From: Cryobacterium sp. GrIS_2_6
GTDB lineage: Bacteria; Actinomycetota; Actinomycetes; Actinomycetales; Microbacteriaceae
DNA: 64,000 bases
Direction: 5' to 3'
Assembly: GCF_035984545.1 (NCBI RefSeq)
Contig: NZ_JAXCHP010000001.1
Span: 2,480,001-2,544,000 of the forward strand
Shown here: in pieces, positions 5,820 through 45,997 of the stretch
How positions within the stretch are numbered: the stretch's first letter is position 1
Layout of the letters: the number at the start of each line of letters is the position of its first letter
Translations under genes and position numbers: made by a program
Notes under the pieces: model-generated
What the model was told of the DNA's origin: nothing
Databases searched by the model: none
What the model saw: the letters and a program-made list of their open reading frames with translations, nothing else

Positions 5820-6275
5820 TCAGAGCGCGGGCGCCCGTCGACGCCACGGCATCCGCCCCAGTCCCCGGCCCCGCGCCCGCACCGGTTCGGGCAGAACCTC
5901 CCGTTGCACCAGGCGCAGGATGCCCGTGCGGGCGGGCGACTTCGGCGCGGCATCGCGCAGCGTGCGGCCGGTCAGCACGGCAGCGTCGGCGCCGGCCTGG
6001 TCGTGCGGGACCAGGAACGGAGCGTGGATGCCGCCGAACCGGCGGAGCGCTGCGACGACCTGCCGGTTGGCGTCGATCCCGACGGCGCTCGGCCGCACTC
6101 GGTTCATCACGACACTGACCCTGTCCGTCGAGACCGCCTCGGCGAGCTCGGCCCACGACCGCAGGAACCGGGCAAGCCCGACGGGGTCGGCAAGCCCGCA
6201 CGCGACGACGCGGTCCGCTGACCGGAGCGCGGTGAGCGTCGCGGCGTTGCGCCGCGGCGCGAACAGGTCGATCAT
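5820..6275 (-). pseudogene. 3' part of a CpaE/TadZ-like P-loop ATPase gene split by the prophage
   Basis: This 151-codon frame encodes the C-terminal part of a MinD/ParA-type ATPase related to CpaE/TadZ (FAPRRNAATLTALRSADRVV, then ADPVGLARFLRSW). Its apparent start ATG-ATC comes from phage DNA just outside the 11-bp junction. The rest of the gene lies at 45192-45997. Joining the parts through the shared sequence gives SSDLF-APRRN in one frame and an uninterrupted protein of 418 residues. It is therefore a gene fragment made by integration. Whether the new ATG is used is unknown. Confidence 0.85.
6260..6270. repeat. attL: attL core (left prophage junction)
   Basis: CGAACAGGTCG occurs here and at 45181-45191. 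To its left is host coding sequence; to its right the sequence no longer fits the interrupted gene. A short shared core is normal for serine integrases. Confidence 0.85.
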
Positions 6276-6319
6276 AGGCGCACTTTACGTCGTTACGAAA
6301 CGGCCTCCATCCCCTGCCC

Positions 6320-6386
6320 TGGCGCGATTTTCCAGCCATATGACCGCTTCCCTGGCCTCACCCAAAACTCCGCCAGAATCGCGCCA
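6320..6386. repeat. 10-bp inverted repeat near attL
   Basis: TGGCGCGATT (6320-6329) and AATCGCGCCA (6377-6386) form a perfect inverted repeat with a 47-bp spacer, between the left junction and the first phage gene. It may be an operator, a directionality-factor site or an accidental repeat. Confidence 0.45.
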
Positions 6387-6449
6387 CGGGGCTTGCTCAG
6401 GCGTACGGCATGATGGGGTATACAGCCACGTTTAATTGAGGAGATCAAA

Positions 6450-6650
6450 ATGGAAATGGCACTTGTTTACCTTGGAATTGTTCTTTTACTTATTGCTCTT
6501 TTTTTCGTTTGGTTTGTCAAAGTCTTGATGCCGTGGAATGACCGTCAGATGGCAGCGCGCAGAGTCAGGGGGAAGATACGACAGGATCACAACGAAGCAG
6601 TTGCTGCTGAGCGTATTGCCGCTGAGTACAGGAAAAAGGGAAGGCTCTAG
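6450..6650 (+). CDS. Small single-pass membrane protein, copy 1
   Basis: A 66-residue protein with one long N-terminal helix (residues 3-27, rich in Leu, Ile, Val and Phe) and a basic cytoplasmic tail. The next gene encodes a paralogue of the same length. Both share the pattern VWF-x-K-x3-(P/M)PW, then R-x-MA, then a tail with AAER-x-AA-x-Y-x-KKG-x-L. A strong ribosome binding site (GAGGAG, 7 nt upstream) fixes the start. It is first in a three-gene rightward operon with the ATPase at 6911, so I infer that it could anchor or regulate that enzyme. I know of no named family. Confidence 0.8.
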   Translation: MEMALVYLGIVLLLIALFFVWFVKVLMPWNDRQMAARRVRGKIRQDHNEAVAAERIAAEYRKKGRL

Positions 6651-6655
6651 TCACA

Positions 6656-6856
6656 ATGGATCTAAGCCTGCTTGTCGTAGCGTTCATTGTTTTACTGCTT
6701 GTTCTTGGTTACGTGTGGTTCAAGAAGACCATATGGCCCTGGTATGAACGCCTGATGGCTGAACGAGACATGAAAATAAAGATTCATCAGGATCAGGTAA
6801 ACGAAAGGGCAGCTGAACGCCTGGCCGCACAGTACAAGAAAAAGGGCAAGCTGTAG
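6656..6856 (+). CDS. Small single-pass membrane protein, copy 2
   Basis: A 66-residue paralogue of the preceding gene: one N-terminal helix (residues 4-27), then PW-x2-R-x-MAER and a charged tail ending KKKGKL. It starts 5 bp after the first copy stops, and a purine-rich stretch over that stop (AAGGGAAGG) can serve as its ribosome binding site. The tandem arrangement implies a duplication that has since diverged at many positions while keeping the tail motifs, so the tails are probably the functional part. It lies 54 bp upstream of the T4CP-like ATPase. Confidence 0.8.
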   Translation: MDLSLLVVAFIVLLLVLGYVWFKKTIWPWYERLMAERDMKIKIHQDQVNERAAERLAAQYKKKGKL

Positions 6857-6910
6857 GTCGGTCGGCTCAATCAGTAAAGCTTTCAATTTTTAATCGTCTA
6901 TGCGAAAGTC

Positions 6911-9115
6911 ATGTTCAGTATGCGATTCAAGAAGCAAATAGTTCGTGACCAAAATCGGGACTCATATCTCCTGACTTTTCCGTCTGATCTTGAACCAGAA
7001 CAAATCACTGCATGGCTACGGGCCGTTGTTGAGACTCTCTATAGGCGCACTTCGGCATTCAACCGCGAGACTCTTGTCTTTGAAACATGGGCGAACAGTC
7101 GTGAGATCTTCCATCGCCTTTTGGTGTCGAAGGACATTGCTGATCACATCACACAACAGCTCAGGACTCACGGCCGCGGTATCGCCGTACTAGAAGACGA
7201 CAGCCGGCCAAATATTGACTGGACAACTGGTATTGAGCTTGGGATGAGCAATCCAACTCGCCAGCTCCAGATCGTTAGTCATGCCGATGTATCAGCAAGC
7301 ATCCTTGGCAGCATTCAGACGTTGCATGAAGGGGAAGACGCACTCATTCAATGGGTTGTCGGTGCTGCAATGGCAACTGAGAAGACAAAGCGTGACCCGC
7401 GTTCAGCTGAGTTCAGTGTCCTTAGGTCACTTGCTGGATACTCAGCTGCTCTCTCAGATGAACTGCAAGACCGCTACGCAAAGCTCGAAGAACCAAACAC
7501 TGTTGCCGTATGCCGGGTTGTTGTACGTGCTGAGCCTGCAAGGGCTTCTGACCTAGTACTCCGCATTCAGTCTGCAATTGCTTCGACGAATGCATCGAGT
7601 AACCACTGGAAACAGATCCCCTCAAATAACCTCATCGCAGAGGTAAATGAAGCGGCAACAACGTCACACCCTCAGGCGCAACTGAACCTGACTGAGTTAT
7701 CGGCACTAGTCGGCTGGAAGATCGGTGGACCTCATGTCGCGGGTCTTACAGCTGGAACATCGCGTCACCTACCAGCTACTGAGTCCATCCCTCGTGAAGG
7801 GCGAGTCATTGGCACCAGTAACTTCCCGCACGCTGCACGACCTATTGCAATCGGCCGTGTTGAGTCACTGACTCACCTGCACATCCTTGGACCAACCGGG
7901 GCAGGTAAGACAACACTGATGGCGAACCTCATGGCGCAGGACATGAACGAGGGCTACGGCGTTGTCATGCTGGAAGGGAAGGGCGACCTATATAAGGCGA
8001 CCATCAAACTGATCCCAACCAACCGACTAGATGATGTCATTATTCTCGATGTAAATGAGCAAGACAGTCCTGTTGGCTTCAACATCTTGGAGCAGGGGAA
8101 TCCAAGTGTTGTCATCGACCAGTTGACTGACCTATTTCAAAGCCTCTACGCAGACGGTGGGCGGGGAGTGTGGATGCGTGAGCTGATGTACCACGGACTT
8201 CATACGCTAGCTGAGCGTTCTGGCATGACCTTCGTTGATCTTGCTGCTCTAGTGAGCCCCCGGACGACTCGTGAGATTACCTGGGCAGACGAGATGCGCA
8301 AGGCTGTCAAGAACCCTGAGGTTCGTGAGTTTTGGCAGGACCGTTGGAACACGCTCGACAAGAAAGCGCAGGAGACTTACTCAGCACCACTGCATAACCG
8401 AATCTGGCAGCTATCGACTCGCCCTGAGCTTCGCAACATTATCGGACAGAGCAAGTCCAGCTTCTTCATGGACGACGTAATCCGTGACAACAAGATCCTG
8501 CTTATCAACTTGTCTGGCGTGCCGAAAGAAGCAGCCAGCATTGCTGGAACGCTCATCATGAACGCCATCTGGTCGTCAGTGCAGCGCGTAAAGGCTGAGA
8601 AGAACAGCTACCTATATATCGATGAGTTCCAAGACTTCATCCGGCTTCCAGTTGGAGCTGAGGACATGCTCGCCAAGTCTCGTGGTTTTGGCCTAGCGCT
8701 GACTCTTGCGCACCAGCACTTGAACCAACTGACGGACGATATCAAGTCAGCCGTTATGGCGAATGCTCGTTCCAAGATTGTCTTTGGTTTGGAAGATCCA
8801 GACGACGCCCGTGCAATGCAGCGTGCTATTGGAGGGGACACATTCAGCCAACAGGACTTCCAAAGTCTTGAGCCGCATGAGGCAGTGGCGAAGGTAATCA
8901 CGGCTAAGGGATCGAGTCTCATTACAATCTCGACGCCGCCACCACTTGCGCCTACTGGCAATGACCAGGCAGCTCTAAAACGATCGCGTGAACTGTACGG
9001 TCGGCCTGTTGCTGAAGTGCAGCAAGCGATTGAAGCTCGCCGGAACAATGAGCCGAAGAAGACCAGTAAGCGACCGGCGATTGGCTATAGCAAGATGAAG
9101 GAGTGGGGCAAGTAG
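6911..9115 (+). CDS. TraG/VirD4/HerA-type P-loop ATPase
   Basis: A 734-residue ATPase with Walker A GPTGAGKT (327-334), Walker B YLYIDEF (567-573) and a downstream glutamine motif LTLAHQHLNQL (597-607), as in type IV coupling proteins with a TraM-recognition-type domain. The first 300 residues are a mixed alpha/beta region without transmembrane helices, unlike VirD4, which carries its own anchor. The two small membrane proteins just upstream could supply it. Coupling proteins move DNA into a conjugation channel; no other secretion gene is visible, so the role is open: DNA movement, exclusion or defence. ATG at 6911 or 6920 are both possible. Confidence 0.85.
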   Translation: MFSMRFKKQIVRDQNRDSYLLTFPSDLEPEQITAWLRAVVETLYRRTSAFNRETLVFETWANSREIFHRLLVSKDIADHITQQLRTHGRGIAVLEDDSRPNIDWTTGIELGMSNPTRQLQIVSHADVSASILGSIQTLHEGEDALIQWVVGAAMATEKTKRDPRSAEFSVLRSLAGYSAALSDELQDRYAKLEEPNTVAVCRVVVRAEPARASDLVLRIQSAIASTNASSNHWKQIPSNNLIAEVNEAATTSHPQAQLNLTELSALVGWKIGGPHVAGLTAGTSRHLPATESIPREGRVIGTSNFPHAARPIAIGRVESLTHLHILGPTGAGKTTLMANLMAQDMNEGYGVVMLEGKGDLYKATIKLIPTNRLDDVIILDVNEQDSPVGFNILEQGNPSVVIDQLTDLFQSLYADGGRGVWMRELMYHGLHTLAERSGMTFVDLAALVSPRTTREITWADEMRKAVKNPEVREFWQDRWNTLDKKAQETYSAPLHNRIWQLSTRPELRNIIGQSKSSFFMDDVIRDNKILLINLSGVPKEAASIAGTLIMNAIWSSVQRVKAEKNSYLYIDEFQDFIRLPVGAEDMLAKSRGFGLALTLAHQHLNQLTDDIKSAVMANARSKIVFGLEDPDDARAMQRAIGGDTFSQQDFQSLEPHEAVAKVITAKGSSLITISTPPPLAPTGNDQAALKRSRELYGRPVAEVQQAIEARRNNEPKKTSKRPAIGYSKMKEWGK

Positions 9116-9142
9116 GGGGCACGCGTAGGCGGGGAGCAGGGG

Positions 9143-9517
9143 CTAGGCAGCAAGTGCCCAGAAACTCATGTTCAGTAGGTCATACTCATGATGACAACTA
9201 CGGCATAAGACGATGATATTGTCGCGCCGATTTGATCCTTTAGCCCAATGGGGTATGAAGTGAGCCATCTGCAAGTCATAGGTTGAACGGCACCTTACGC
9301 ATTCTCCAGGATCAAGCCCTAGCTCACGGCGGTCCTTCTTTGATGCGAAACGAGGTCCAGGTGTTCGTGACCGGTCAGCTGCTCTAATTAACTTCAGTCG
9401 TTCTGAGCTTCGCTTCCGATAAAGAGATTTGAGATGCAGTTTTGAACATCGAAGAGAGCAGTAGCTTGTTTGCTTTCCGCTTAACTCGGTACTACATCGT
9501 TTACATATCATTGCCAC
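9143..9517 (-). CDS. HNH endonuclease
   Basis: A 124-residue protein starting at GTG (9517) or ATG (9511). The N-terminus has a zinc knuckle (CKRC, then CSLRC). The C-terminal half is an HNH fold: CVRC, AHFIPH, then a central asparagine (RRDN) and CRSCHHEYD. Phage HNH proteins often assist terminase in cutting at cos sites, where they usually sit beside terS. Here it is the last gene of the leftward late operon, far from terminase, and converges on the ATPase gene. It could also be a homing-type or moron nuclease. Confidence 0.85.
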   Translation of the reverse strand: MAMICKRCSTELSGKQTSYCSLRCSKLHLKSLYRKRSSERLKLIRAADRSRTPGPRFASKKDRRELGLDPGECVRCRSTYDLQMAHFIPHWAKGSNRRDNIIVLCRSCHHEYDLLNMSFWALAA

Positions 9518-9524
9518 GTACCAT

Positions 9525-9560
9525 GAAGCACTCCCCCGATTCAGTCAAGGGGAGTGCTTC
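9525..9560. terminator. Perfect 12-bp hairpin between lsr2 and the HNH gene
   Basis: GAAGCACTCCCC (9525-9536) and GGGGAGTGCTTC (9549-9560) pair perfectly with a 12-nt loop. It follows the lsr2 stop on the minus strand and precedes the HNH start, so it may end lsr2 transcription or control HNH expression. No T-run is present. Confidence 0.6.
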
Positions 9561-9577
9561 AAGTCAGAACCAAAGGC

Positions 9578-9919
9578 TTACTTGTTCGCCCTGTACTTCT
9601 CCATAAGCGAACCAGAAATCCTGCCCCTATCACTCACAGTCTCCCCATTGGCACGAAGCCATTCACGGGCAGCAGCAAGTTCAGCAGGATCGTTCTTGCC
9701 AGCAGAAGCGCGGGTAGCAGTACCGCGCCCAGTCTTTCGCGCAGCAGCCAGATACGGCTTGAGAGCATCGCGAAGCTTCTTTGCGTTGACGTCGCTTAGG
9801 TCGATCTCATAAGCAACTGCATCAAAGGTGAAGTTGATCGTCTCAGCCTTACCTTCATCAATCAGCTTGCCATCGAGGTCGTCAATGATTGTGGTCGTCG
9901 TAACTGTTTTCTGTGCCAT
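9578..9919 (-). CDS. lsr2: Lsr2-like nucleoid-associated protein
   Basis: A 113-residue Lsr2 homologue. The N-terminal half has the beta-hairpin dimerisation region (TTTTIIDDLDGKLIDEGKAE, then INFTFDAVAYEIDLS). The C-terminal domain has AREWLRANG, then SDRGRIS, where RGR is the AT-hook-like motif that binds the minor groove of AT-rich DNA. Host Lsr2 proteins silence AT-rich foreign DNA. A phage copy could take part in lysogeny or replace or disturb host silencing. It stands between the holin and HNH genes with hairpins on both sides, so it may be expressed separately from the late genes. Confidence 0.92.
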   Translation of the reverse strand: MAQKTVTTTTIIDDLDGKLIDEGKAETINFTFDAVAYEIDLSDVNAKKLRDALKPYLAAARKTGRGTATRASAGKNDPAELAAAREWLRANGETVSDRGRISGSLMEKYRANK

Positions 9920-26790: not shown

Positions 26791-28353
26791 TTAAAAGCCT
26801 TTTGGCTTGTTTGTAAATACCCTACGGCGAGATTGCAAAACGAGTTCTTCAGCGGCTCCGAGGTAGGCATCAAACATGTCGTCGTGTTCGCCTTGAGGGA
26901 ATTGCACTATCTCTTCAACAAACGCACTGGCAAGCGGGTGATCTTCACGCAGGTGAACGTAGCCAGCTTGGAACATGCCAGCCTGCATCGATGCACGTCG
27001 CACCTTGTCACGGTCTGGCTTCCATTTGACGATTGGCATGTTGATACCGTTGCGCTGCGCGATGTTGCGAGTCAGTGCATAGAGCCCTGCTTGATACGCA
27101 ACGGCTTCAATCTTTAGTCGGTCATGTCGCCAGGTTTGGAACTGGTCGCCGATCATGTTGGCTTGCTTCTCTGGGTCTGACTCTCGTAGCCGTACGTAGT
27201 CGAGAATGACCACATGATTACGCGGATGTCCTTCACAGAATGGACAAGCCTTTGTAATACCGATCGTTATCATCGCCCACCAGTCGGCAGTTGTCTTTTC
27301 GCTGATTGCTGGGTCAATGTGCCCGACAATCTTCGAAAAATGTGCCCTTAGCCATTCGTCTCGTGCGTTCTGAAGCGTCTTAGCTTTGATAACGCTCTGA
27401 TACTCACTGATCGACTTCATGAAGCTGTAGCGGCTTTGTAGCCATTCAGGGCGGATGATCTGATCCTGGTCACTGATTGGATCGTTCTGGATCTCGCGGC
27501 TGAACTCAACAACGCCGAGATACATCGGATGCTCTGGGTCATCACGCATGCCCTGTAGATATTCAAGACTGAAACGCTCAGGCCACAGGCTCTCCCCTTC
27601 ACTGGTGATGCCTTGATACTTGTGCGTCTTCCACCCGCTAAACACACCCTTCTTAGCGATGATGTGGCTCAGTAGGCTCTCACGGTGCAAGATCGTGCCA
27701 ATGATGATGATCTTTGAGATGTCCTTAGCCATTGCGGGCATCAGGGCACGCATGAACCAGTTGTAAAGCTTCTCTCGGCGCTCCGGACTGGCAACCAGCT
27801 CATCGTTCTCCAGGTCATCGAGGATCGCTAGGTCAGGACGGTACTGCTTGTAGCGCAGACCACGAACCTTCATGCCAGCGCCACGTGGCAGGACTCGCAC
27901 AAGCTCACGGCCGTTCTCTCCGTAGGCATTGATCGTCAGGCCTTCACTCGACCACTCACGGCCTTTTACATCGCCGTAGATCCACAGCAACACTTCATTG
28001 CTTTCAAGCTCGCTCTTGAGTCCGTCGATCATCATCACGGCCTGCGTGTACGTGTCTGATATCAACATGGCAAAGTGTGACCGTGCGTAGAGCAAGCGAT
28101 GCGCCAGGTAGATCGTGTCTGTCACCGTCGTCTTTGAGAAGCCACGTGGCGCTGCGATACCTACGTTGCCATCGTCTTCGAAGTAGTCGAAAAGTTCAGA
28201 GTGGAAGCCAGCGAGCTTTGTTGGCACGTAACTAGAAAACAGTTCTGCGAACTCTTCAATGTGCGCTGGATCGCGGTAATAGGTTCGGTAAACGAGTTTG
28301 GCCTGATCCTCACCGAGCTGTTGGATTAACTCACTCGGGTTCGGTAACGCCAT
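26791..28353 (-). CDS. terL: Terminase large subunit
   Basis: A 520-residue packaging motor. Walker A is APRGFSKTT (68-76), Walker B with the catalytic acid is LAILDDLEND (175-184), and the coupling motif IIIIGTILH follows. The C-terminal nuclease domain carries acidic residues in GHIDPAISEKTTADWW and near the end in FPQGEHDDMFDAYLGA. I chose the ATG at 28353 because GAGGG precedes it by 7 nt. An upstream ATG at 28407 lies deep in terS and adds a basic stretch that is not typical. Confidence 0.93.
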   Translation of the reverse strand: MALPNPSELIQQLGEDQAKLVYRTYYRDPAHIEEFAELFSSYVPTKLAGFHSELFDYFEDDGNVGIAAPRGFSKTTVTDTIYLAHRLLYARSHFAMLISDTYTQAVMMIDGLKSELESNEVLLWIYGDVKGREWSSEGLTINAYGENGRELVRVLPRGAGMKVRGLRYKQYRPDLAILDDLENDELVASPERREKLYNWFMRALMPAMAKDISKIIIIGTILHRESLLSHIIAKKGVFSGWKTHKYQGITSEGESLWPERFSLEYLQGMRDDPEHPMYLGVVEFSREIQNDPISDQDQIIRPEWLQSRYSFMKSISEYQSVIKAKTLQNARDEWLRAHFSKIVGHIDPAISEKTTADWWAMITIGITKACPFCEGHPRNHVVILDYVRLRESDPEKQANMIGDQFQTWRHDRLKIEAVAYQAGLYALTRNIAQRNGINMPIVKWKPDRDKVRRASMQAGMFQAGYVHLREDHPLASAFVEEIVQFPQGEHDDMFDAYLGAAEELVLQSRRRVFTNKPKGF

Positions 28354-28828
28354 GGTCAGCCCTCGACGCTTTAGACAAGACAGCAAGCGCTTCTGGGGAT
28401 AATTCATTGGTGCTAGTCACGTTGGCATCAAGCGTCTGCTTGCTTTCGTCAACGTAGGCAAAGTTGTTCTTAGCGAGGAAGATACCGCCTTGTGGAGTGC
28501 GTGATTCCATGATGCGTGTCTCTAAGTCGTCTTGAACTTTGGCACGTGCCCGCGCGATAGTGGGGAAATACTCGTCCCGCTTGCTGTAGTTGACTATGGT
28601 CTTTCGATCAATATCGAGGAAGTAAGCCAGTCCAGCCATCGTGTACGGCGCAGGGTTGTTGTATGTAACCTCGTCCATCGTCTTATCGCTGTAGAACGTC
28701 TTGATCCTGTTGTCACAGTACGCAAAGTATTCATCAATCTTCGCTTGCAACTCTTTATCGCTCTTGAAAGCTAGAGGCCTTCCGATGAATGCCTGTTGTG
28801 ATGGTTTACCGTTCTTAGGAGCAACCAC
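28331..28828 (-). CDS. terS: Terminase small subunit
   Basis: A 165-residue DNA-recognition subunit. After GRPLAFKSDKELQAKIDEYF comes a HTH-like segment PYTMAGLAYFLDIDRKTIVNY (residues 60-80), then a helical oligomerisation part (PTIARARAKVQDDLETRIME) and a hydrophilic C-terminal tail. It overlaps the terL start by 23 bp. The packaging site probably lies in or near this gene. Confidence 0.85.
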   Translation of the reverse strand: MVAPKNGKPSQQAFIGRPLAFKSDKELQAKIDEYFAYCDNRIKTFYSDKTMDEVTYNNPAPYTMAGLAYFLDIDRKTIVNYSKRDEYFPTIARARAKVQDDLETRIMESRTPQGGIFLAKNNFAYVDESKQTLDANVTSTNELSPEALAVLSKASRADHGVTEPE

Positions 28829-29131: not shown

Positions 29132-29695
29132 ATGAAAGACAACGCGACTCAAACCCCTTTGTTCGTCGACTCGGTGCTAGATCAAAAACAAGCCCTCGAG
29201 GATTACCGCACAATGTACGCGAAACTTGGCGAATTGGAATTGCTAAACCTCAAGAATCCGAGTCCGCAAATACTCGAACAGATGGAGAGAGTGAGCCATC
29301 ACCTCAATAAACTCAGTAAAAGAATGGGACAGGGATCAAAAAAGCCATGGAGATGGCCAGATGATCGGCCAAAGTCACAGTCGTTCATGGCTATCGTATC
29401 TGCCAACGTTGTATCGGGAATAATCCTTTCTGTAGTCCTCTATGTTGCAGCGGCGTTCTTTGGATACATAAAAACGCCAGCAGGTTTGCATATCTACTTG
29501 ATAGCAATTGGAATCTTAACCGGAATTTCTGGTATATTTTCACTACAATACTATCTCAACCTAATTAGACACAAAACTCATTACCCATGGGTAATGAGCC
29601 ATATGAAACTAATTATTGCTTTATGGATAATTGCTATAGCTGCCTTCATTGTGTCAATCGGCTCACTTGCTGTGCAGATCATACGTGGTTATTAA
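29132..29695 (+). CDS. Hypothetical membrane protein, lone rightward gene
   Basis: A 187-residue protein. The N-terminal 80 residues are hydrophilic and helical (DQKQALEDYRTMYAKLGELE, QMERVSHHLNKLSKRMG); the rest has about three transmembrane helices (FMAIVSANVVSGIILSVVLY, IYLIAIGILTGISGIFSL, LIIALWIIAIAAFIVSIGSL). It is read opposite to the genes on either side and begins without a clear ribosome binding site. This fits a lysogenically expressed accessory gene, for example superinfection exclusion, but the role is inferred only from context. Confidence 0.65.
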   Translation: MKDNATQTPLFVDSVLDQKQALEDYRTMYAKLGELELLNLKNPSPQILEQMERVSHHLNKLSKRMGQGSKKPWRWPDDRPKSQSFMAIVSANVVSGIILSVVLYVAAAFFGYIKTPAGLHIYLIAIGILTGISGIFSLQYYLNLIRHKTHYPWVMSHMKLIIALWIIAIAAFIVSIGSLAVQIIRGY

Positions 29696-33471: not shown

Positions 33472-34185
33472 TTAACTAAAGATCAAAGGCGCAAACTCAG
33501 ACATCGTAGAAACAAGAAACAAGTCCTGTGCGTCTTTCGGTCCACGTTTAACAATCGCACGCAGCCAGCGCGCCCGTGCATCGTCTGGTGCTATGAATAC
33601 AACTAGAGGGAAGACTGGAAGCGTCTCACTATCCGCATTCTCGAACGCGTGAAGATAGCGTTGCAGTTTGTCTTTGATCGCACTTTCCCGCTCCGTGCCC
33701 AGGTCAATTTCTAGCCACAGACTCAAATTACGCTGACGGCCAATGTCGGAGATCTCAACGTGTAAGTCAGGGCGCAGGTCAGATCCCGCGATTACTCGCC
33801 AGGTATAAGGCTCAGTGGTGACTGTATCTATAGAGATGCGCCCCTCATGCTGTAGGTGCAATAGCTCTAGGTAGGCATCAGCTATCCCTATGGTGTGGTG
33901 ATTCACCGACCTAGTAGGCCAGTACCTACCTTCACGCCCGCTGATTGCCCAGCCCGCGCTACCAAGTTGATAGACGTACTGGCCGCTCCCTGATCCGTTC
34001 CCGCCTATAGGACGACGCTCTAGTCGTTTGATGTAGCGGAAGGCCACCAGACGGTCTAAGGCGCGGTACATAGGAGTGACTGACTTGTGATCGTTGAAGT
34101 GCATGACTTTGATGTGGCCTGAAGGTAGTTGTCCGAACTGAGCAATAGACAGGACGATTTGACGGTCACGATCAAGTATGAACAT
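33472..34185 (-). CDS. Replication-relaxation family protein (Replic_Relax)
   Basis: 237 residues when read from the ATG at 34185 (MFILDRDRQIVLSIAQFGQL). An N-terminal winged-helix-like part (HIKVMHFNDHKSVTPMYRAL, then YIKRLERRP) is followed by AGWAISGREG and a C-terminal alpha/beta domain (RPDLHVEI, LWLEIDLGTE). This matches Replic_Relax proteins of actinobacterial plasmids and integrative elements, linked to replication initiation. A promoter ends 7 bp before this ATG, so the mRNA is predicted to be leaderless; a reading from 34320 would cross the promoter. A DnaA box lies 145 bp upstream. Confidence 0.82.
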   Translation of the reverse strand: MFILDRDRQIVLSIAQFGQLPSGHIKVMHFNDHKSVTPMYRALDRLVAFRYIKRLERRPIGGNGSGSGQYVYQLGSAGWAISGREGRYWPTRSVNHHTIGIADAYLELLHLQHEGRISIDTVTTEPYTWRVIAGSDLRPDLHVEISDIGRQRNLSLWLEIDLGTERESAIKDKLQRYLHAFENADSETLPVFPLVVFIAPDDARARWLRAIVKRGPKDAQDLFLVSTMSEFAPLIFS

Positions 34186-34192
34186 GTGAGTC

Positions 34193-34221
34193 ACTATGTA
34201 GCAACGAAGTACGCGTGTCAA
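34193..34221 (-). promoter_or_regulatory. Leaderless promoter of the Replic_Relax gene
   Basis: On the minus strand: TTGACA (34221-34216, full consensus), 17-bp spacer, CATAGT (34198-34193), then GACTCAC and the ATG at 34185. The expected transcription start coincides with the A of the ATG. Confidence 0.75.
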
Positions 34222-34329
34222 ACTGCCGCAGTCCCCCGTGATTCTGGGCGTCTGGTGTGGGGCGAAAACCACAGCAGCCACACAGCCATTTACACACAGT
34301 GACAGATGACCTAATTGCATTGTGAAAAG

Positions 34330-34338
34330 TTATCCACA
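34330..34338 (+). promoter_or_regulatory. DnaA box
   Basis: TTATCCACA, the full consensus, between the two divergent promoters and next to the Replic_Relax gene. Supports a replication origin or DnaA-dependent control in this region. Confidence 0.5.
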
Positions 34339-34367: not shown

Positions 34368-34396
34368 TTGACTATTAAAGTCCTCAAGCTCATAAT
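34368..34396 (+). promoter_or_regulatory. Promoter of the rightward early operon
   Basis: TTGACT (34368-34373), 17-bp spacer, CATAAT (34391-34396). The predicted start near 34403 leaves a leader of almost 300 nt before the first gene at 34698. A 10-bp palindrome ATCAATTGAT (34419-34428) just after the start could be an operator. Confidence 0.6.
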
Positions 34397-43577: not shown

Positions 43578-43706
43578 ATGAAACCTAGTGAACTTGTTAC
43601 TTACCTAGAAGGCTCGACTACTGCAAGCGCAGTACCTTTGAAGGTAGATAACAAAGAAGCCCTTGAGCAGGCTTTATTACAGGTTATATCTTCCACTTTA
43701 TTGTGA
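43578..43706 (+). CDS. Possible 42-residue protein opposite the integrase end
   Basis: ATG at 43578 opens MKPSELVTYLEGSTTASAVP, then LKVDNKEALEQALLQVISST. A TATAAT (43562-43567) stands 10 bp upstream, so a leaderless or nearly leaderless mRNA is conceivable, but no good -35 was found. The 3' end overlaps that of the integrase gene by 23 bp. Coding status uncertain. Confidence 0.35.
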   Translation: MKPSELVTYLEGSTTASAVPLKVDNKEALEQALLQVISSTLL

Positions 43707-45105
43707 TGCGTGATGGTGCAAAACGACGACGACTACCGTCATCAAGCGTGTAATAAGGCTTCTCATCAGATGAATCGACATCAATCTTCTCAATGAACAT
43801 GTCAGTTAGTTCACGACGCCATCCATCAGGGTTACTATTCCAGGCATCTCGAATAGTTTCACCTGGCTTGAGAGAGACTCGTGTCTGCGTCTTATACAGA
43901 GAATCAATGTCACGCTGAAGTACTGTGATCTTCTGGTTAAGTCGGTCTTGTGCATATGCAAATTGACGCTTGTCGATCTTGCCATCAACGAAAGAGTCGA
44001 ACATCACATCAATACGTGCTTTCAACCGTCGCTGTTCTTCTAGCATCCTTAGGAGGATAGGTCCCTCTGACTTTTGAGCTTGCAGTACTTCACCCATCAA
44101 CTCACTGTCCAACCGAAATATGACAGACTCACGGATGAAGTGGTCAAGTGGGTCAGCACCAATACACATTCCATTGCATCCTCGGCACTGATACGTACGT
44201 CTGAGCGGTCTTGAACTAGCGTCACGCTTTGTCATACCAAATAGATCTCCCCCACACTTCTTGCACTTCAACAGGCGAGTCAGTAGGTATCGGCTATTAT
44301 TCGGCCTTCCACGTATATTCTCATGTCGACGCTGGATGATTGCCTGCATGATAAGCCAGTCATCATCTTCAAAGACGTGCTCCCACTTACCTTTGTACTT
44401 GACGCCTTCAAGAACCCTGAACCCAGCATGTCGAGGATTAGTAAGGTGTTTGCGAATCGTACTTGGTTCCCAAGGTTTTCCAGCACGTGTCGGTAGACCT
44501 AGCTCAGTCAGTCGCTTTGCGATCTCGTAGTAACTAAAACCACTCTTCAGATAGGAACCCATGAGCTTCAGAACATGTGCTTCCTGCGGATCAAGGATCA
44601 TAGGGTTATCGCTGTACCCATAGGGTCGAATAGGTGATCCGTGGGGCTTACCTTCCTGCGCGTTCTCAAGAAGCTTCCTCTTAATCCGACGACTAGTATC
44701 GCGGGAACTCTTGTTTGCGAAAGCCACCATGATACGAGCCATAGTGATTCCCTCACCAGCAAGATCTATATCCCCCTGAACTGTTGCAAATGTCAGTTCA
44801 GCGTGATCCTCGTAGATAGCAATTAGGCGTTCGAGATCACTTGGTTGTCGAGCAATGCGATCTAGGTCATACGCGACTATGCCATCGATGATGCCTGCCT
44901 TAAGATCGAGGATCATCTGCTCGAACTGAGGCCGCACAATGTGCTTCTTGAAGGCGCTGAAGTTGTTGTCTGTATAGTCGCGAATAATTGACCATCCACG
45001 TATCTCTGCGAGCTTGTGCGTGTCCTCAAGCTGCCTGGCGACACCCAATCCATCGCCCTCTCCGTCGAAACTAATCCGCTGGTATGCTCCAATTTTGCTG
45101 CTCAT
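43684..45105 (-). CDS. int: Large serine integrase
   Basis: 473 residues from the ATG at 45105, with GGAGAG about 9 nt upstream. N-terminal catalytic domain with Ser12 (GAYQRISFDGEGDG) and VAYDLDRIARQ, then the recombinase domain (PHGSPIRPYGY, STIRKHLTNPRHAGFRVLEG), a zinc ribbon (CKKCGGDLFG, then CRGCNGMC) and a coiled coil (LLRMLEEQRRLKARIDVMFD). It catalyses integration at the CpaE-like gene. The start is 75 bp from the attachment core, as in many serine-integrase phages. A longer reading from 45162 would run close to the attachment core. Confidence 0.95.
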   Translation of the reverse strand: MSSKIGAYQRISFDGEGDGLGVARQLEDTHKLAEIRGWSIIRDYTDNNFSAFKKHIVRPQFEQMILDLKAGIIDGIVAYDLDRIARQPSDLERLIAIYEDHAELTFATVQGDIDLAGEGITMARIMVAFANKSSRDTSRRIKRKLLENAQEGKPHGSPIRPYGYSDNPMILDPQEAHVLKLMGSYLKSGFSYYEIAKRLTELGLPTRAGKPWEPSTIRKHLTNPRHAGFRVLEGVKYKGKWEHVFEDDDWLIMQAIIQRRHENIRGRPNNSRYLLTRLLKCKKCGGDLFGMTKRDASSRPLRRTYQCRGCNGMCIGADPLDHFIRESVIFRLDSELMGEVLQAQKSEGPILLRMLEEQRRLKARIDVMFDSFVDGKIDKRQFAYAQDRLNQKITVLQRDIDSLYKTQTRVSLKPGETIRDAWNSNPDGWRRELTDMFIEKIDVDSSDEKPYYTLDDGSRRRFAPSRITIKWKI

Positions 45106-45997
45106 CAGGTATTTCTCTCCGCTTATGGGCCTCACTATGAGGCAACCAGTCCGATACGTCAATACCGGTGCCTACTGCGCCGAACAGGTCGCTCGAGATC
45201 TCCTCGTCGCTTTCGAGGCTGAACCCGGTGTCGAGAACGACGTAGTCGACCCAGTTCCGCAGCACCTCGATGGTCTTCGAGACGCGCTCGCCCGACAGCT
45301 CCGGCCAGCGCGAGGGCCGCCCGATGCCCGTGAGCACCCAGAACGCGCCGCGCGGAGAGGTGTAGCGCTGCGCGATGCGTTCGAGTTCCGGGCGGGTGAG
45401 GCTGTCGGTCCCGGCGAGGCGGCAGGCCGCGGCGAAACCGGGTGATTCGTCGAGCATCCCGAGGGCCGGCGCGATCCCACCTCCGTAGCTGTCGACGTCG
45501 ACGAGCGCCACGGTGTGACCCACCGCCGCGACCTCGGCGGCGATGTTGATCGCGAGCGTCGTGCGGCCCGGCGCGCCGGAGGGCCCCCAGACCGCGATCA
45601 CAGTGCCGCGAGCGGACAGTGTGCGCGTGGCTTCCCGCTCGGCGACCCGCAACGGGATCACCACGCCGGCCTCGATCACCGCCTCGATGCCCGCCCAATC
45701 CGCCGTTGCGTCGATCACGTCGAGGAGGCCGAGTCCCGCCGCGTTCCTGCGATCCTGGTCGGTCGCGGCGAGGGCGATCACGCGCACGCCGTGCTCGTCG
45801 CACGCCCGGATCACGGCGGCACTCAGCGTCCCCCGTCCCGCGCTCAGGAGTGCGACGTCGGCCTCGGTGCGGTCCAGGACCGCGAGCAGTTCCGCTGCCC
45901 CCGAAAGCCGGGCGAGGACGGCGTGCCCGTACTGCACGATGTCTGCGAGGAGGCGGTCCTCCGTCGAACGGTCGAGCGCGAGCAGCAGCCGGGCCAC
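45071..45997 (-). pseudogene. 5' part of the CpaE/TadZ-like ATPase gene split by the prophage
   Basis: From the GTG at 45997 the frame encodes a receiver-like N-terminal region and a MinD/ParA-type domain with a deviant P-loop (VWGPSGAPGRTTLAINIAAE) and LVDVDSYGGG. After SSDLF the host sequence ends at the 11-bp core and the frame runs on for about 36 codons in phage DNA to a stop at 45071, overlapping the integrase start. The missing C-terminal part is at 5820-6259. Such proteins are linked to Flp/Tad pilus assembly; the SAF-domain gene upstream fits. Confidence 0.85.
45181..45191. repeat. attR: attR core (right prophage junction)
   Basis: Second copy of CGAACAGGTCG. To the right is the 5' part of the interrupted ATPase gene; to the left is phage DNA with the integrase. 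Confidence 0.85.

Follow-up and report, generated by a model that had tools for sequence, protein, structure and literature searches.

A candidate DNA-mobilization gene pair, encoding a VirD4/TrwB-type coupling protein and a MOBC-family protein, in a temperate tailed phage of Cryobacterium

Introduction

Type IV coupling proteins (T4CPs) that lack a transmembrane domain (TMD) form a described class, according to PMC7434980. A small protein of pIP501 with two transmembrane segments (2-TM), TraI, has been proposed to anchor the TMD-less TraJ; PF13814 is the MobC relaxase family, found with VirD4 in streptococcal integrative mobilizable elements (IMEs); and MOBC elements carrying their own coupling protein have published precedent. 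Here we analyse a 64,000-nucleotide stretch of Cryobacterium sp. GrIS_2_6 (contig NZ_JAXCHP010000001.1, positions 2,480,001 to 2,544,000; hereafter the window), in which a prophage carries at its left edge a trio of genes—two for small membrane proteins, a and a-prime, and one for an ATPase—and, 24 kb from the trio, a gene for a PF13814 protein, Replic_Relax.

The trio resembles pIP501 TraJ/TraI in that a VirD4-type ATPase without membrane domain is encoded in the same cluster as a small membrane protein, a likeness of layout; it differs in being phage-borne, in having no type IV secretion system (T4SS) genes in view, and in its one-TM instead of 2-TM proteins. CloDF13 and class 8 of the streptococcal IMEs share with the prophage a serine integrase, PF13814 and a VirD4-type ATPase, whereas here the genes are dispersed and a tailed-phage gene set is present. 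A 2024 study of phage-plasmids (PMC10879196) reports a relaxase or origin of transfer (oriT) in plasmids derived from P1 that no longer have phage functions; among P1-like phage-plasmids, just two carried one. No phage module of relaxase plus coupling protein is described in the available parts of PMC11389934, PMC10879196 and PMC12977533, and in open-licence full texts, as far as these were accessible, we met no account of any phage lineage keeping both as standing genes.

Results

The ATPase is very probably a coupling protein of the VirD4/TrwB type. Its RecA-like nucleotide-binding domain has a Walker A motif, GPTGAGKT, at residues 327-334 and a Walker B motif with D571/E572, both already pointed out in a preliminary description of the locus made from the sequence alone; at G327, G332, K333, D571 and E572 all 33 aligned sequences agree. 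Pfam matches are to TrwB_AAD_bind and T4SS-DNA_transf; TrwB is the best fold match in a structure search, the alignment spanning residues 83-686; and the predicted model has a helical region at 398-525, between the Walker motifs, that answers to the T4CP all-alpha domain when taken as part of the whole protein. No TM segment is found among the first 70 residues, as had been proposed, and small membrane open reading frames (ORFs), its putative membrane partners, lie upstream. There is good support for placing the protein among the TMD-less coupling proteins.

The preliminary description was also right that the three genes are all read rightward, opposite to the late genes on the other strand, and that the small proteins are single-pass paralogues. 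Each has one N-terminal hydrophobic segment; they agree at 30 of 66 residues and their DNA shares repeat blocks of 48, 34 and 17 nt at a spacing of 206 bp, so that a and a-prime look like the products of a diverged tandem duplication. In the sister phage of genome G002 one such type-a gene was found where this prophage has two: it encodes an a-prime orthologue (55/66 residues identical), and no counterpart of a was found there. Between the two phages the ATPase, a-prime and Replic_Relax are under purifying selection, with dN/dS values of 0.03, 0.095 and 0.116 by a simple count with Jukes-Cantor correction. A sub-threshold match of a-prime to ATP-synt_B (6.7e-4, 20.2 bits against a cut-off of 28) we take as a coiled-coil-like chance match. 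The idea that the small proteins are T4SS pilins was dropped: none of 13 type-b (2-TM) peptides matched any Pfam pilin family (E 0.05), the corresponding test of type a being a Pfam scan of a and a-prime only.

The trio had been described as standing without any other conjugation gene, which was not confirmed: the ORF at 33472-34320 on the minus strand matches PF13814, the defining family of MOBC relaxases, at 3.6e-19 (70 bits, cut-off 25.3). A search of solved structures with a first Replic_Relax alignment gave nothing at E 1 or below, and relatives bear the PHROG labels 'replication initiation by nicking' and 'replication initiation protein'. Upstream lies a DnaA box, which with up to one mismatch recurs in 24 of 31 phage upstream regions against 3.3 expected from mononucleotide shuffles, a set that includes this prophage's own record (one of the 24) and mutual near relatives. 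A promoter-like site, diverging from Replic_Relax, has its pattern in 11 of the 31, all among the first-listed 15 records. The segment 34330-34396 may be an origin and operator; box, promoter-like site and leader recur in many related phages.

The ATPase and Replic_Relax occur together well beyond this prophage. A viral scan gave 20 records with the ATPase. At E 0.001 PF13814 is found in 13 of these, in G462 with a score under the Pfam cut-off: the 12 closer records (L085-L096) contribute 9, their three misses measuring 16.6, 18.0 and 23.4 kb, and the 8 more distant ones contribute 4. In the reverse direction the ATPase was found in 20 of 33 Replic_Relax records, namely in 20 of 26 that are 37 kb or longer and in none of 7 shorter ones. 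Record boundaries can hide the ATPase, since one 34.8-kb record (G466) carries this prophage's own Replic_Relax, at 100% identity, with no ATPase; and in 13 of 19 records no more than 5 kb separates the ATPase from a record end, a count that omits G489 (175 kb, a weak two-piece match). By this linkage a partnership between the ATPase and the MOBC-family protein is well supported, and we regard Replic_Relax as a probable partner of the coupling protein.

Wider searches yielded less. In INPHARED, tblastn with the ATPase (E limit 1e-5) matched 1 of 50,697 records, a Microcystis phage at 24.8% identity, and with this prophage's Replic_Relax (E limit 1e-3) none, the method being too insensitive to reveal the Bacillus phage G considered below. 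Among plasmids, 91 records matched the ATPase distantly, and in no case did the match reach 80% of the query. A scan of genome contigs returned, among the 80 matches listed, mostly Patescibacteria and other metagenome-assembled genomes, with one close locus (L005). That locus, in Streptomyces sp. PTY087I2, encodes a close ATPase relative, with small membrane ORFs and a pair of PF13814 genes, one of them directly downstream. Many genomes of Patescibacteria (candidate phyla radiation) encode relatives of the coupling-protein core, among the matches listed (L007-L084). In the 22-kb record of Microcystis phage Mwe-JY31 (L004) the ORF that comes after a distant ATPase matches PF13814 weakly, at 5.6e-4.

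Membrane ORFs were surveyed in 20 close-family loci, duplicates and loci cut at the ATPase being left out. A 2-TM ORF lies within 450 bp upstream of the ATPase in 15. The five misses are this prophage and its sister (L105), a lineage in which no 2-TM peptide was found; L090, with a 52-residue ORF whose second segment falls short of the threshold; and L087 and L212, in which the 2-TM ORF lies farther upstream, at 661 and 747 bp. A 1-TM ORF is reported in 17 of the 20 (none in L087, L209 and L213), the rows for this prophage and L090 using an ORF other than type a. Small membrane proteins accompany the ATPase in other genomes, and a pair of one-TM proteins is not the general layout: a single type-a gene was found in the sister phage, and most close relatives have a 1-TM and a 2-TM ORF. 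The 2-TM peptide would thus appear to be the widespread partner of the ATPase, its arrangement being comparable to that of TraI in pIP501. Types a and b show no relation to each other (hhalign probability 1.8%).

A search for distant forms of the ATPase in 398 genomes of the same bacterial family (E limit 1e-30) found one, at 26-33% identity, in 23 further genomes (25 counting the source genome, G000, and G359), and also in G000 and G025. In all 25 loci followed (the 23 genomes plus G000 and G025) a PF13814 gene stands directly downstream on the same strand, the interval from the ATPase match to the PF13814 match being at most about 0.42 kb. In 23 of the 25 there is then a serine recombinase (PF07508), again same-strand, at a distance of up to about 7 kb; the misses, G416 and G237, are at contig ends. 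Upstream, within 450 bp of the ATPase, 23 of the 25 have a 2-TM ORF of 45-80 residues, the exceptions being L112 and L121, which begin at contig edges; in a mechanical, uncurated control set 27 of 308 other long ORFs have one. Because this order—2-TM peptide, coupling protein, MOBC-family relaxase, serine recombinase—recurs, the loci look like IMEs. Such loci share with the prophage a coupling protein, a Replic_Relax and a serine recombinase, and differ from it in that their ATPases are only 26-33% identical and the relaxase adjoins the ATPase. Profiles of the phage and IME 2-TM peptides align with an hhalign probability of 88.6% (E 2.7e-6, 42 columns, 10% identity), which supports kinship without proving it, as hydrophobic segments can align by composition.

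One of these loci, L137 (G000:C1:4138853-4145000, at 4.139-4.145 Mb), is a second, IME-like element in the source genome: it holds the 2-TM peptide, coupling protein, Replic_Relax, serine recombinase and an MT-A70 gene, and no capsid gene was recognized in it on inspection by eye. G025 has a similar locus.

A fuller set of genes of this kind is found in Bacillus phage G (L226, JN638751, 85059-93336). There gp146 is a PF13814 relaxase-family gene; gp150 matches T4SS_pilin at 27.4 bits (cut-off 26.6); gp153 (TrbL_4) and gp155 (P-loop_TraG/AAA_10, VirB4-type) exceed their cut-offs; and gp156 matches the present ATPase family. As in the prophage, a PF13814 gene accompanies an ATPase that matches the A1 profile (4e-64), here about 5 kb away; unlike the prophage, phage G is a lytic jumbo phage with pilin-, TrbL- and VirB4-like genes alongside. 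The gp146-gp156 region is possibly a phage-borne T4SS. Phage Slash gave a structural match of the ATPase and no PF13814 match.

The element itself (Table 1) is a prophage of about 38.9 kb, delimited by CGAACAGGTCG, the longest string common to both edges, and by the fact that the host flanks joined there form one open frame of 520 residues; we take the interrupted gene to be ParA/CpaE-like, from reading it rather than from a search. GC content is about 70% in the flanks and about 50% within the element. TerL, portal, minor head, tape-measure and Dit genes are present, so that the element falls outside the IMEs, which have no capsid genes. An HNH gene and Lsr2 lie beside the trio, and the early genes include ERF, ArdC and a resolvase. 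A further ORF antisense to the late genes (29132-29695, plus strand, 187 residues) has several hydrophobic stretches by eye, and had no PHROG match and no Pfam match above cut-off.

Table 1. Positions of the features discussed, numbered within the window.
Feature	Position	Strand	Remarks
attL core CGAACAGGTCG	6260..6270	.	left prophage end, inside host gene; 11 bp
Small membrane protein a	6450..6650	+	66 residues, one TM, polar tail AAERIAAEYRKKGRL; apparent diverged tandem duplicate of a-prime
Small membrane protein a-prime	6656..6856	+	66 residues, one TM; orthologue in phage G002
ATPase	6911..9115	+	734 residues; very probable VirD4/TrwB-type coupling protein without TM domain
HNH gene	9143-9517	opposite to trio	
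TerL	26791-28407		PHROG 38, 8.1e-75
Replic_Relax (PF13814, MOBC relaxase family)	33472..34185	-	237 residues from conserved start; ORF open to 34320
DnaA-box sequence TTATCCACA	34330..34338	+	exact match; upstream of Replic_Relax
Early promoter-like TTGACT-17-CATAAT	34368..34396	+	diverges from Replic_Relax; conserved leader
Serine integrase	43684..45162	-	PHROG 95 integrase, 2.4e-89; PF07508 at 44326-44589; right edge
attR core CGAACAGGTCG	45181..45191	.	11-bp string shared with left edge

Discussion

That the ATPase and Replic_Relax are the coupling-protein and relaxase halves of a MOBC-type DNA-mobilization module in a temperate tailed phage is, in our estimate, evenly poised between true and false; that they mobilize phage DNA is put slightly lower still, though it remains the leading, unproven function, and the preliminary description, which offered DNA translocation among the possible roles, is partly supported. 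On this mobilization hypothesis Replic_Relax would bind phage DNA through a winged helix and nick it with a PD-(D/E)XK-like domain. The ATPase would form a hexamer held at the membrane by small proteins, a and a-prime here and the 2-TM peptide elsewhere, such anchors being needed because the coupling protein has no membrane domain of its own. In complex with them it would receive the DNA once nicked, alone or with the relaxase bound, and pump it out through the membrane by way of another element's mating channel or a simpler pore, perhaps to another cell. The position of the trio, by attP and antisense to the late genes, is compatible with lysogenic expression; judged from the layout, the trio would adjoin attP and the integrase once the prophage is circularized.

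Several observations speak against mobilization. No resident mating channel was found: VirB4 (TIGR00929, PF12846) and TrbL (PF04610) gave nothing over cut-off in G000, G002, G025 and G359, with strict models that few of 14 control genomes pass. An integrative and conjugative element would have its own T4SS with VirB4, and by these three models the whole source genome has no match over cut-off, where the only VirB4 matches below threshold come from its two coupling proteins. In two genomes of one and the same genus, G002 (C19 153693-157942) and G025 (C1 324479-331965), VirB4 and TrbL matches, all sub-threshold, stand about 3 and 6 kb from each other; a divergent T4SS is possible there, if unproven. 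The repeat search for an oriT near Replic_Relax gave two-copy direct repeats only, nothing convincing; a promoter scan of 6200-9600 found none 5' of the trio, its single site being at 9191-9220 against a shuffle mean of 2.0. In phages the pair is split, by about 6 kb or more in the nine closer records, and two distant ATPase records of 57 and 44 kb (G458, G459) have no PF13814. Conversely, six records of at least 37 kb (G476, G479, G480, G481, G482 and G487) have Replic_Relax and no ATPase. When these were set against 10 of the 20 records that bear the ATPase, four found a match of 88-93% over summed BLAST pieces of about 9-12 kb; either loss of the ATPase or trimming of the record would fit. 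Lysogeny is not needed for either family, since phage G has both. Lastly, Replic_Relax stands in a repressor-like position beside a DnaA box and may regulate or replicate.

The last point leads to the most substantial of the alternatives, itself rather improbable in our judgement: Replic_Relax as a phage replication initiator, regulator or both, with a membrane-held ATPase for moving or segregating phage DNA within the cell, none of it being exported. The promoter-like site, leader and enriched DnaA box leave room for this, as Replic_Relax would then sit in the immunity and early-promoter region, where no repressor-like domain was seen among ten ORFs scanned, a part of the early ORFs; the PHROG names of its relatives and the presence of both families in a lytic phage agree. 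Set against it are the compact IME-like loci, in which the ATPase/PF13814 pair is joined to a 2-TM peptide and a serine integrase; moreover, replication would hardly require a coupling-protein fold with membrane partners. Superinfection exclusion or defence, in which a prophage-expressed membrane ATPase targets incoming phage DNA, seems unlikely. The trio does stand at a prophage end, antisense to the late genes; the ATPase matches PADLOC mad8 at 1.8e-23 and, weakly, HerA, in a scan covering the trio and the Replic_Relax alignment; and HerA-type ATPases belong to known defence complexes, to judge from structure titles. Scans of the three proteins found no effector domain, and the HNH gene at 9143-9517 lies on the other strand; the trio differs from HerA-type anti-phage systems in having no SIR2, DUF4297 or NurA partner, and the ATPase fits TrwB better.

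A clear IME form of the ATPase family exists, and this prophage and its sister have no 2-TM partner, both of which would suit idle cargo acquired from an IME and functionless in the phage. We consider that very unlikely, for the ATPase has kept its catalytic residues invariant under a dN/dS of 0.03 and is maintained together with Replic_Relax in diverse phages. The PHROG 2666 terminase match of the ATPase (1.3e-12) raised the question of a virion packaging motor, the reading to which we give the least credence of all: it is rejected because the prophage has a separate, ordinary TerL, together with portal and head genes, and the ATPase gene lies outside the late operon on the opposite strand.

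Phages and conjugative elements are commonly regarded as distinct routes of DNA movement. If mobilization is correct, the small 2-TM peptide would illustrate how coupling proteins can have a membrane domain that is detachable, and tailed phages that keep a relaxase and a coupling protein among their standing genes, under strong selection, would blur the line between phage and conjugation. Judging by phage G, a phage with conjugation-like machinery may be no isolated case. We tentatively propose a lineage of temperate tailed phages with a standing MOBC relaxase and TMD-less coupling protein, able to leave the cell either in virions or by conjugation-type export, with phage G as a second, fuller hybrid; doubtful as this still is, it suggests a virus that moves between cells in two ways.
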